Below, piece by piece: positions 30,392 to 35,212 of a stretch of DNA of 64,000 nt. Each line of letters begins with the position of its first letter. Position 1 is the first letter of the stretch. Both the position numbers and the translations under genes were made by a program. The notes beneath the pieces are model-generated. The model had not been told where the DNA came from and did no database searches. It worked only from the letters and a program-made list of their open reading frames with translations. The stretch comes from Nocardia iowensis (GTDB lineage: Bacteria; Actinomycetota; Actinomycetes; Mycobacteriales; Mycobacteriaceae), in assembly GCF_019222765.1 (NCBI RefSeq), contig NZ_CP078145.1, positions 2,790,001 to 2,854,000 on the forward strand, written 5' to 3'.

Positions 30392-30913
30392 GTGTTGAAG
30401 CTGGCGAAGATCGCCGCAACCGCGGCCGTATTTGCCGCAGTCCTCGTCCCGTTCGGCATCGGTGCGGCATCCGCCTTACCGCCCGGGGGTAGCTGCGCGC
30501 ACGGTGAGTTCCGCTGGACCGCAATGGACGGCGCGATCGACATGACGCCGCGCGAGCTCACGTTCACCTCCGTCGGTGTGCTCCGCGACTGCACGGGCGG
30601 CCCCGATGGCATCACCGGCGGCACCTTCACCGGCACGCACGTCGCGACGTCGCACTGCATGTTTCCGGCGGACGGCCCGATCACCGTCGACGTGCTCTGG
30701 TCGAACGGCGAGACGAGCAGGCTGTGGGGCCCGTGGCCGGTGACTGCCCAGCAGCCGACGGTCGGCACGTTGGACGTGGTCGCCGGGCTCGGCCAGGGCA
30801 GCCGGGTCTTGATCACCGCCGACTACGAGATGACCCCGGCGATGATCGGTGGTTGCCTCGGCCCCGGCGTCCGCACCGGCGCGGGTCGGCTCAGCGCGGC
30901 GACCGCCCGGTGA
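30392..30913 (+). CDS. Secreted protein of unknown function
   Basis: 173 residues from GTG 30392 (GAAGAGG about 8 bases upstream). A 26-residue signal peptide (LKLAKIAATAAVFAAVLVPFGIGAASA) is followed by a mature part with four cysteines that could form two disulphides (CAHGEF, DCTGG, HCMFP, GGCLGPG). This resembles small secreted beta-sandwich-like proteins of mycobacteria and nocardiae. Its last 23 bases overlap the convergent idi gene. Confidence 0.75.
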   Translation: MLKLAKIAATAAVFAAVLVPFGIGAASALPPGGSCAHGEFRWTAMDGAIDMTPRELTFTSVGVLRDCTGGPDGITGGTFTGTHVATSHCMFPADGPITVDVLWSNGETSRLWGPWPVTAQQPTVGTLDVVAGLGQGSRVLITADYEMTPAMIGGCLGPGVRTGAGRLSAATAR

Positions 30914-31463
30914 GCGCTTGCTCGGCGACGTCGAGGACGCCGACCAACCACGGCGTGTAGGCGTCCGGATCATCCGTCAGTGCGTCCCGCAATGCGTCCG
31001 GCTGGATCCACACATAGGCGGCGACCTCTGCCGGATCGGGCCGAGGGGAACCGGCGGCGAGCAGCCCGACCAGGACGTGGTCCCATTCGAACTCGACGCG
31101 ACCGGTCGCCGCATCCTCGGCGTGATAGCGGTAGACGCCCACCTCGGTGAGGGTGGTCGCCAACCCCATCTCCTCGGCGAGGCGAACGGTGGCCGCCGCC
31201 ACGACGGGCTCGCCCGGCGCGGGATGGCCGCAGCAGGTGTTGGCCCACTGCGACGGGAAGCGGGTCTTGACCGCGGCACGCTGCTGCAACAGCACTCGCC
31301 CGGCGTTGTCGAACAGCAGCACCGAGAACGCGCGGTGCAGTTGTCCCGGTGACTGATGCGCCTGCGATACCGGGCAGGTGCCGATCGCGTTGCCCTCATC
31401 GTCGACGAGCTCGACGGGCAGGGCCTCGCGGTCGGTGATCGGCTGGGCGAGAGTGTCGGTCAC
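30891..31463 (-). CDS. idi: Isopentenyl-diphosphate delta-isomerase, type 1
   Basis: 190 residues, Nudix-fold metal enzyme that interconverts IPP and DMAPP. The catalytic cysteine is Cys78 in NTCCGHPAPGE, and the Nudix-like glutamates are in RLAEEMGL; the catalytic glutamate is in VEFEWDH. It is last in the encapsulin-terpene cluster. Its GTG start overlaps the stop of the methyltransferase by four bases (GTGA), so it is translated with it. It can supply DMAPP for the geranyl diphosphate that the cluster methylates. Confidence 0.93.
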   Translation of the reverse strand: MTDTLAQPITDREALPVELVDDEGNAIGTCPVSQAHQSPGQLHRAFSVLLFDNAGRVLLQQRAAVKTRFPSQWANTCCGHPAPGEPVVAAATVRLAEEMGLATTLTEVGVYRYHAEDAATGRVEFEWDHVLVGLLAAGSPRPDPAEVAAYVWIQPDALRDALTDDPDAYTPWLVGVLDVAEQALTGRSPR

Positions 31464-32332
31464 CTGCCCACCTTATCGGCGGCGATCAGCAGGTATTGGA
31501 AGCTGCCCTCCCGGTAGGCGGTCAGGAACGGCCGCTCGACGCCGGTCGCCAGCTCGGATTTCGTGCGCAGCTCCCAGTAGGGGATGGTGGCCGCGGTGAG
31601 GTCGGTCACGTCGACCGGCACCAGGTTGTTCTCGGCCATCGCGCGAAAGTATTCGCTGCGCGGATGGATCATGCAGCCGTAGTGCGCGTCGATCCAGCTG
31701 ACCGAGGACGAGCGGCCACCGGTCACGTCGTTGGAACAGCCGGTAACGCACACATAGCGGCCGCCGGGTTCGAGCAGTCGGGCGAATTCGTGGAACAGGT
31801 CGAACAAATCGACGTACATGGTGGTCTCGTTGGTCCAGATGCCGCGCATCGACCACGGCTCGAACCCGGTTTCCAGCATGTTCCGGAAATGGAACCGCAC
31901 CTTGTCGGCAACGCCGCGCTGGACGGCTTGCTCGTTGGCGAAACGGACCTGATATTCGGAGATGGTGACGCCGTCGACCTGGCAGCCGAAGCGCTGGTTG
32001 GCCATGAAACTGGTGCCGCCGCGGCCGGAGCCGCCGTCCATCAGCCGGTCGTCGGGGCGGATGTCGCCGAGGTGGTCGAGCAGCAGCGCGGCCTGGGCGG
32101 TTTCCAGTCGGTGCAGTTCCTCGACGATTCGCTCCTGGCGGGTCTCTTCCGGGCCGGTCAGCACGGACGGATCGGGCGCGCCGATGCCGTAGTGGTGGTG
32201 GTAGAGCCCGTCCACCTCGCCGAGTTTGGTGTTGACGCGGTCGTCGTTGGGGTTGTTGTTCCAGTACGCGGCAACGGCCTTCTGGTAGCTGGTACGGAGC
32301 ACGGCATCGGTGCCCGAGTCGAACGTGGTCAT
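31460..32332 (-). CDS. Geranyl diphosphate 2-C-methyltransferase
   Basis: 290 residues. It puts a methyl from SAM on C2 of geranyl diphosphate, giving 2-methyl-GPP, the substrate of 2-methylisoborneol synthase. The SAM loop is LMDGGSGRGGTSFMAN (about 98-113); YHHHYGIG near residue 44, EELHRLETAQ and NNPNDDRVN are family hallmarks. It lies 48 bases after the cyclase gene. Assignment is firm from sequence and context. Confidence 0.93.
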   Translation of the reverse strand: MTTFDSGTDAVLRTSYQKAVAAYWNNNPNDDRVNTKLGEVDGLYHHHYGIGAPDPSVLTGPEETRQERIVEELHRLETAQAALLLDHLGDIRPDDRLMDGGSGRGGTSFMANQRFGCQVDGVTISEYQVRFANEQAVQRGVADKVRFHFRNMLETGFEPWSMRGIWTNETTMYVDLFDLFHEFARLLEPGGRYVCVTGCSNDVTGGRSSSVSWIDAHYGCMIHPRSEYFRAMAENNLVPVDVTDLTAATIPYWELRTKSELATGVERPFLTAYREGSFQYLLIAADKVGR

Positions 32333-33790: not shown

Positions 33791-33805
33791 GGCTCATCCC
33801 CCCGG

Positions 33806-35212
33806 TCAGTCCGCTTGCCGGGCTACCAGGACATTGTCGAGCACGCCCAACGCGTCGGGCACCAGCACCGCCGCCGAGTAGTAGCAGCTGACCAGATAGG
33901 ACATGATCGACTGGTCGTCGATGCCCTTGAACCGGACGTTGAGGCTCGGCTCGTATTCGTCGGGTATGCCGGTCTGGTGCAAACCGACCACGCCCTGGTC
34001 CTTCTCGCCGGTGCGCATGGCCAGAATCGACGTGGTCTGTTCTTCGCTGACCGGAATTTTGCCGCAGGGGAAGATCGGCACGCCCCGCCACGCGGGCACC
34101 CGATGCCCGTCCACCTCCACCGGGTCGGGATAGAGGCCACGCTTGTTGCATTCCCGGCCGAACGCGGCGATCGCTTTCGGGTGTGCGAGAAACAGTTTCG
34201 TGCTGCGCCGCATGCTCAGCAGCTCGTCCATGTCGTCCGGCGTCGGCGGGCCCGACTGGGAGTAGATGCGCTGATTGAGATCGCAGTTGCGCAGCAGGCC
34301 GAAGTCCGGATTGTTGACCAGATCGTTCTCGCGCCGCTCGTAGAGCGCCTCGATGGTCAGCCGGAGTTGCTGCTCCACCTGGTTCATCGGGTCGTTGAAC
34401 AGGTCGGCGACGCGGGTGTGCACGCGCAGCACGCTCTGCGCGAGGCTGAGTTCGTATTCTCGTGGGGCGGCGTCGTAGTCGACGAAGGTCCCTTCCAGCT
34501 GCGGCTCGCCGGCGTGACCCGAGGAGACCTGGATGTTCGCCTCGCCGTGCTTGTTCTGCGGTGGGGTCGGCGCTGCGGCAACCCGCGCCAAATACTCCCG
34601 CAGCGAAGGCGTGGCGTCGAGCGCCTGATCGAGCGCGTGCTTGGGCAGCACCAGCAGGGTGGTCGGGGTGGTGGTCTTGACGGTTACCGGCCAAATGGCC
34701 GACCCATCGATGAGGGTGGCGTCGCCGAAATAGTCACCGTCGGCGAGCTGACCGACCACTGTTTGTTCACCGTAGTGTCCGGAACCGATCTTGTTCAGCT
34801 TGCCGTGCGCGATCAGGATCAGCTGATCCATCGGATTGCCGAACTCGGCGATCACCGTTCCTGGTTCGTGGTCGCGCTGTTCGAAACGGTCGGCGAGGGA
34901 ACGCAGCGCGTCCTCGTCGTCGAAGCCGCGTAACTTCGGAATTTCGGTGAGCTCTCGGGGAATAACGCGGCATTTGCCACCATTGACGGCGAAGGTGACG
35001 GTGCCGTCGCCGACGACGTACGTCAGGCGCCGGTTCACCCGGTAGACACCGCCGTTGACCTGCACCCATGGCAGTGCCCGCGTAAGCCACCGCGAGGTGA
35101 TGCCCTGCATCTGCGGTTCGGTTTTGGTGGTGGTCGAAAGCTGGTGGGCCGCCGTGGTACTGAGGCTCTTACGGCCGTTGGTTTGTGCTTGAGCTGACGT
35201 TTCGATGGTCAT
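33806..35212 (-). CDS. Family 2B encapsulin shell protein with cyclic-nucleotide-binding-like domain
   Basis: 468 residues. An N-terminal arm of about 45 residues leads to the start of an HK97-type shell fold; a Crp/CAP-like cyclic-nucleotide-binding domain (about 95-215, [20 protein letters not shown]) is inserted; and the shell fold resumes from about 250 ([33 protein letters not shown] ... to the C-terminus). This is the architecture of Family 2B encapsulins, related to EshA. The family forms icosahedral shells around 2-methylisoborneol synthase. In the nucleotide cassette the usual Arg is replaced (AIWPV), so binding of cAMP is doubtful. GAGGTGAGGAC precedes ATG 35212. It is the first gene of the cluster. 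Confidence 0.9.

Follow-up and report, generated by a model that had tools for sequence, protein, structure and literature searches.

An encapsulin-associated 2-methylisoborneol-type operon in Nocardia iowensis and the history of its isomerase gene

The operon and its products

This study concerns a four-gene operon of Nocardia iowensis that lies within the window, that is, the whole 64,000-nucleotide stretch analysed (contig NZ_CP078145.1, positions 2,790,001 to 2,854,000), in a genome of 8.95 Mb assembled as one contig. All four genes are on the minus strand and encode, in order, a Family 2B encapsulin shell protein (468 amino acids, 33806 to 35212), a terpene cyclase of the 2-methylisoborneol (2-MIB) synthase type that is the predicted cargo (469 amino acids, 32381 to 33790), a geranyl diphosphate (GPP) 2-C-methyltransferase (GPPMT; 290 amino acids, 31460 to 32332), and a type I isopentenyl-diphosphate (IPP) isomerase with a GTG start (IDI; 190 amino acids, 30891 to 31463). 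The genes are spaced by 15, 48, and -4 bases, the last being an overlap, GTGA, that joins the stop of GPPMT to the start of IDI. Matches of all four proteins to NCBIfam exceed the curated cut-offs, and a Pfam search agrees on the families. An earlier interpretation made from the letters of the window (the sequence-only reading) had proposed this strand, spacing, and set of identities, including the Family 2B class, and is borne out by the coordinates of the open reading frames (ORFs) and by the family matches; its assignment to a 2-MIB pathway with a compartmented cyclase also appears right, with the compartment itself predicted. A chance cluster is ruled out, as the gene order and the overlap are conserved in the genus and recur across named Nocardia species.

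The shell protein scores 752 bits against NF041163 (cut-off, 400) and matches the solved Family 2B shells 9bix, 9bje, and 9bhu over nearly its full length, with E values of 1e-178 to 1e-190. By homology it is a member of the HK97-type Family 2 shells, with an internal domain of the cyclic nucleotide monophosphate (cNMP)-binding type (PF00027, residues 113 to 199) ahead of the SrpI-like domain (PF19307, residues 215 to 464). According to the available text of PMC12407261, 9bix and 9bje are shells of Streptomyces lydicus and 9bhu is that of Streptomyces griseus, and the cNMP-type domain of such shells is said, with reference to a preprint, not to bind cyclic nucleotides. These solved shells thus resemble the window protein in near full-length sequence; they differ in that they come from other organisms, whereas assembly of the Nocardia shell is predicted.

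The cyclase reaches 546 bits against NF041167 (cut-off, 400), and its residues 102 to 462 are similar to the 2-MIB synthase structures 3v1v and 3v1x, while the best structure match, 4zq8, is named only as an isoprenoid synthase. The sequences DDYYCEED, at residue 220, and NDLYSMARE, at residue 378, are what we take to be its metal motifs. Within an N terminus of variable length lie two exact copies of GPTGLGT, at residue 78 (33539 to 33559, minus strand) and residue 126 (33395 to 33415, minus strand), which are putative shell-targeting motifs by the consensus in the available text of a 2021 encapsulin survey (PMC8346489). Among the 64 cyclase rows of the orthologue set, 49 carry one to three GPxGLG motifs and 15 lack the strict form, some of these being cut or having GPxGIG variants; the length of the N terminus varies in this set as well.

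The methyltransferase belongs to the equivalog family NF041943 (494 bits; cut-off, 400) and matches the solved GPP methyltransferases 4f84 (E = 5e-97) and 3vc1 (E = 3e-95). The isomerase is over the cut-off of both NF002995 (190 bits; cut-off, 127) and TIGR02150 (121 bits). Aligned with the Escherichia coli enzyme 1i9a, it keeps the residues equivalent to H25, H32, C67, H69, E87, E114, and E116, presumably, in both numbering and role, the metal-binding and catalytic residues of that enzyme. The genome carries a second idi gene elsewhere.

Deduced from the named families, GPPMT would act in the cytosol, turning GPP into 2-methyl-GPP; the cyclase would enter the Family 2B shell by means of its N-terminal extension with the two GPTGLGT motifs, and the encapsulated cyclase would convert 2-methyl-GPP to 2-MIB, an odorant with an earthy smell. 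The isomerase would balance IPP and dimethylallyl diphosphate (DMAPP) for GPP synthesis, and its translation may be coupled to the end of GPPMT. The sequence-only reading had gone further and spoken of an encapsulin-housed pathway. Were GPPMT and the isomerase also inside the shell, the entire pathway would be compartmented, and the conserved operon with its overlap might be seen in that light; however, the motif GPxG[LI]G is found in neither GPPMT nor IDI, against two copies in the cyclase, and we regard this possibility as very improbable. The motif is likewise not found in the shell protein of the window. Placement of the cyclase in the shell is probable, and because GPPMT and IDI are devoid of the motif, the operon is better described as having an encapsulin-housed cyclase.

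As a system, the operon is ordinary and well conserved. In its available text, the 2021 survey counts 904 terpene-cyclase operons of Family 2B, describes GPTGLGT motifs in 2-MIB-synthase-like cyclases and C-methyltransferases that accompany these cyclases, and lists IPP isomerases among the genes enriched in such operons (PMC8346489). The isomerase had been put forward by the sequence-only reading as a new extension of the shell-cyclase-methyltransferase set; to judge from that text it was already known. The operons described there share with ours a shell with a cNMP-type domain, a GPTGLGT-bearing cyclase, a C-methyltransferase, and an IPP isomerase, and as far as the text goes there is nothing categorical to set them apart; the particulars here are two exact copies of the motif and an idi gene that can be traced as a resident independent of the other genes. 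Furthermore, 2-MIB clusters have been predicted in two Nocardia genomes (PMC9007811, in its available text). The history of the isomerase is a modest new point: a search by title and beginning of the abstract in open-licence PMC papers, which took in no preprints and in part covered top results only, found no paper on it in Nocardia.

Distribution and contexts of the isomerase

How often idi is joined to Family 2B clusters, a comparison that the sequence-only reading had suggested, was assessed within and outside the genus. Peptide patterns taken from the window cyclase, which favour near relatives, picked out 64 loci among named genomes, 63 from Nocardia and one from Streptomyces. An isomerase match was found at 59 of the 63 Nocardia loci, the other four (L072, L076, L079, and L080) having the trio of shell, cyclase, and GPPMT genes without an adjoining idi. 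Where both GPPMT and IDI are present, the spacing is -4 at 57 of the 59 loci, -7 at one, and 150 at one; two of the 57 (L082 and L087) have GPPMT only as a remnant. In a sample of 150 genomes of the genus, 95 had the cyclase family over the cut-off. High-scoring loci (at least 513 bits) number 80, from 79 genomes, and lower-scoring ones (422 to 460 bits) number 17, from 17 genomes, one genome having both. The isomerase lies within 4 kb of 75 of the 80 high-scoring cyclases (L234 and L235 being two of these), a set in which the presence of the shell was not checked at every locus, and within 4 kb of none of the 17 lower-scoring paralogues among the isomerase matches listed. Four of the five exceptions are in G033, G043, G065, and G096, which have cyclase and shell but gave no match to this isomerase; the fifth is a second copy of the trio in G131 (L236). 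Six lower-scoring paralogues that were inspected (L233 and L237 to L241) stand alone, with no shell, GPPMT, or IDI in the stretch.

Outside the genus, a class-wide draw of 394 genomes gave 35 loci over the cut-off in 33 genomes. Two type I isomerases served as queries (E = 1e-5) against about 8 kb of flanking DNA in either direction, or less where a contig ended. An isomerase follows GPPMT in all eight clusters of one other actinobacterial genus (f19/g42) and in none of the other 27 with these type I queries, more distant or type II isomerases not having been sought. The f19/g42 isomerase is 44 to 49% identical to the window IDI and 60 to 68% identical to the second idi product of the window's genome, identities that favour two lineages. 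A tree with outgroups separates the Nocardia and f19/g42 isomerases (97*), but the approximately unbiased test does not reject a shared origin of the two joins (P = 0.43), and when fewer sequences are used and those outgroups are left out, the f19 and Nocardia rows share one side of the tree with a support of only 65.

Isomerases of the Nocardia lineage also occur next to other genes whose products use prenyl substrates. In L214 and L215 of Nocardia, an extra IDI is found some 1 kb outside a Family 2B cluster that has two shell genes and a geosmin-synthase-like cyclase, and in a related genus (L186) IDI is divergent from a cluster of the order shell, geosmin-synthase-like cyclase, shell. These clusters resemble the window operon in having Family 2B shells with an isomerase of the same lineage nearby but differ in having two shells and a two-domain cyclase in place of GPPMT and a one-domain cyclase; the two-domain cyclase of L215 scores 1151 bits against NF041168, just below the cut-off of 1200. 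In L214 and L215 the geosmin-synthase-like cyclase gene sits between the two shell genes. Elsewhere, IDI is next to UbiA-like genes that fall below the Pfam cut-off of 34 bits (L216 and L220, 31 and 33 bits), and the IDI of L221 and L222, whose neighbours are not annotated, belongs to the same clade. In L217 and L218, IDI immediately follows a second GPPMT, and the surrounding genes include UbiA-like ones, so called in L217 with one of two over the cut-off and in L218 by likeness. This second GPPMT-IDI pair (4295 to 9630 in L217 and 7027 to 9494 in L218) has no such cyclase or shell nearby; in L217 it is accompanied by a DUF1702 gene and an ORF resembling short-chain dehydrogenases/reductases. 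Possibly, the pair provides a methylated prenyl donor for another product. In L219 (6877 to 8573), a gene of the tryptophan-dimethylallyltransferase (DMAT) type overlaps an IDI gene of the same lineage by four bases.

The partners found beside IDI thus include the encapsulated-type 2-MIB synthase with GPPMT, the geosmin-synthase-like cyclase of the two-shell clusters, predicted to be encapsulated likewise, UbiA-like genes, a GPPMT-UbiA set, and a DMAT-type gene, and the lineage looks like a reusable DMAPP-supply gene. We tentatively propose, at odds somewhat short of even, that it is portable, supplying DMAPP beside several prenyl-using enzymes, and that a different isomerase joined the trio independently in another actinobacterial genus.

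Probable loss of the trio and the standing of the isomerase

Recruitment of the isomerase in this strain is ruled out as a recent event, since the gene occupies the same place across the genus. Among the 55 genomes of the genus sample without an over-cut-off cyclase, 52 retain an IDI of this lineage; from the 55, 32 loci were inspected, in groups of 26, 3, and 3. At all 26 trio-less loci, which were chosen for having IDI, the gene lies beside the Rv1683-like gene (a name taken from the sequence-only reading), in the place that the trio occupies in other species, with no whole trio gene between, at a distance of about 160 to 625 bases in 25 of them and about 1200 in L202. In G004, G079, and G098 (L227 to L229), the trio is in place with a broken cyclase, and IDI is in place as well. 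The last three, G034, G037, and G112 (L230 to L232), gave no IDI match; G034 and G112 show the locus without IDI, and in G037 the contig ends there.

Remnants of the trio with an E value of 0.002 or better are found in 5 of the 26 gaps. In L166, L200, L201, and L204 the remnant is the 3' end of GPPMT, abutting IDI, and in L202 it is a piece of the shell gene. In the window, the bases that immediately precede the IDI start, where a ribosome-binding site is expected, fall within the 3' end of GPPMT; sparing of this end may be explained by the probable ribosome-binding site of IDI inside it. Intermediate states occur as well. In L199, an intact shell gene and an intact GPPMT gene flank a cyclase that is reduced to a weak N-terminal similarity, the genome having a lower-scoring paralogue elsewhere. 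Decaying operons were also noted at L082, L087, L227, L228, L229, and L242, with GPPMT remnants in Nocardia veterana and Nocardia africana; elsewhere the cyclase is split or truncated. When the trio is mapped onto a FastTree phylogeny of the Rv1683-like protein, its absence requires 12 changes, of which starred branches force at least 8, and the Nocardia lineages that branch off deepest have the trio. The isomerase seems to be the older inhabitant of this site, and often to have stayed when the other three genes were lost.

We read the locus as a genus-typical Nocardia 2-MIB operon with a resident isomerase and an ancestral trio that was repeatedly deleted, and we put the probability of this account as a whole at roughly 80%. 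The isomerase would be long-standing at the locus, serving general DMAPP supply; the other three genes would go back to the ancestor of the Nocardia sampled and would have been deleted repeatedly, with the isomerase mostly left in place.

Several points weigh against this account. In 21 of the 26 trio-less gaps there is no remnant at an E value of 0.002 or better, and absence of the trio may be primary there. The choice between gain and loss rests on the root of the Rv1683-like tree and on the remnants, and that tree is a proxy for the species built from one protein with one distant outgroup row. In a related genus, the pair of IDI and Rv1683-like gene was seen once without the trio (L187). 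As to the proteins, a structure model of the shell, built with 22 near relatives, reached low confidence only (mean predicted local distance difference test score, 54; predicted template-modelling score, 0.38), and the fold call therefore rests on sequence homology. Finally, the cyclase might make another C11 terpenoid, such as 2-methylenebornane: synthases of 2-MIB and of 2-methylenebornane share the substrate 2-methyl-GPP (PMC5908152, in its available text), and sequence cannot decide between these products. However, 3v1v and 3v1x, both named 2-methylisoborneol synthase, match the cyclase with an E value of about 1e-56, and we consider another product improbable.

The part played by the isomerase could be read in two other ways. 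The sequence-only reading gave the pathway its own isomerase, an enzyme dedicated to the 2-MIB compartment and kept for 2-MIB alone. The GTGA overlap, conserved as a -4 spacing at 57 of 59 loci, is in keeping with this, as are the proximity to 75 of 80 high-scoring and, among the matches listed, 0 of 17 lower-scoring cyclases and the isomerase behind the same trio in all eight f19/g42 clusters. In contrast, the gene is retained in 52 of the 55 genomes without an over-cut-off cyclase; four named loci with the trio and four genomes with cyclase and shell do without it; it is absent, within the stretches inspected, from the 27 remaining clusters outside the genus; and members of its lineage are found by other genes for prenyl-using enzymes. 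Isomerase and pathway were not found to be gained and lost jointly. Close association with the cyclase therefore stands, whereas "its own" is too strong, also in view of the second idi, and we judge a strictly dedicated enzyme unlikely. At the other extreme, the isomerase might be a mere neighbour with no functional link, co-transcribed only because the trio lies upstream. That it remains after loss of the trio, and that the trio occurs without it, in the stretches inspected, in all 27 clusters outside Nocardia and f19/g42, would fit such a view; yet the tight overlap is conserved, a second genus has at the same place an isomerase that is 44 to 49% identical to the window IDI but 60 to 68% to the second idi product of the window's genome, and the lineage has additional copies next to genes of the UbiA-like, geosmin-synthase-like, and DMAT types. 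We hold a plain neighbour to be just as unlikely as a dedicated enzyme and favour the resident isomerase with a role in general DMAPP supply.

The operon is standard for the genus, and the more attractive reading of it is overstated. The remnants left by loss, together with the repeated placement of an isomerase by prenyl-using genes, provide a natural experiment in which to ask if encapsulated terpenoid synthesis is limited by the supply of DMAPP; species that possess the trio but lack this idi can serve directly as controls.

Surroundings and minor observations

On the shell side, the operon is separated from the divergent Rv1683-like gene (35752 to 38703) by an intergenic region (35213 to 35751) that, by its position, is presumed to hold the promoter. 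On the idi side, a short ORF on the plus strand without a Pfam match (30209 to 30913) shares 23 bases with the 3' end of idi. The sequence-only reading had placed the operon between argH and the Rv1683-like gene; the latter indeed adjoins the shell gene, whereas argH (21814 to 23235) ends about 7.7 kb from the isomerase gene, with several genes between.

The Rfam family RF02735 (Sernc350), listed as an antisense RNA, matches the plus strand opposite the shell gene (34677 to 35174) with 131 bits, as it does at seven of the eight related loci given, the exception being L092. Fourfold-degenerate sites under the match are no more conserved than those in the rest of the shell gene (0.57 to 0.64 versus 0.50 to 0.67 by block). 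The match probably reflects conservation of the shell coding sequence, and we do not take it as evidence of an RNA. In its available text, the source paper of the family used double-stranded cDNA, and the word strand-specific is absent; the signal taken for an "sRNA" in Saccharopolyspora may come from mRNA of the shell.

Elsewhere in the window, genes for the small- and large-subunit rRNAs lie at 58865 to 63846. The genome also encodes a Family 2A encapsulin (G000:C1:3934425-3935291, L226), which scores 522 bits against NF041162.

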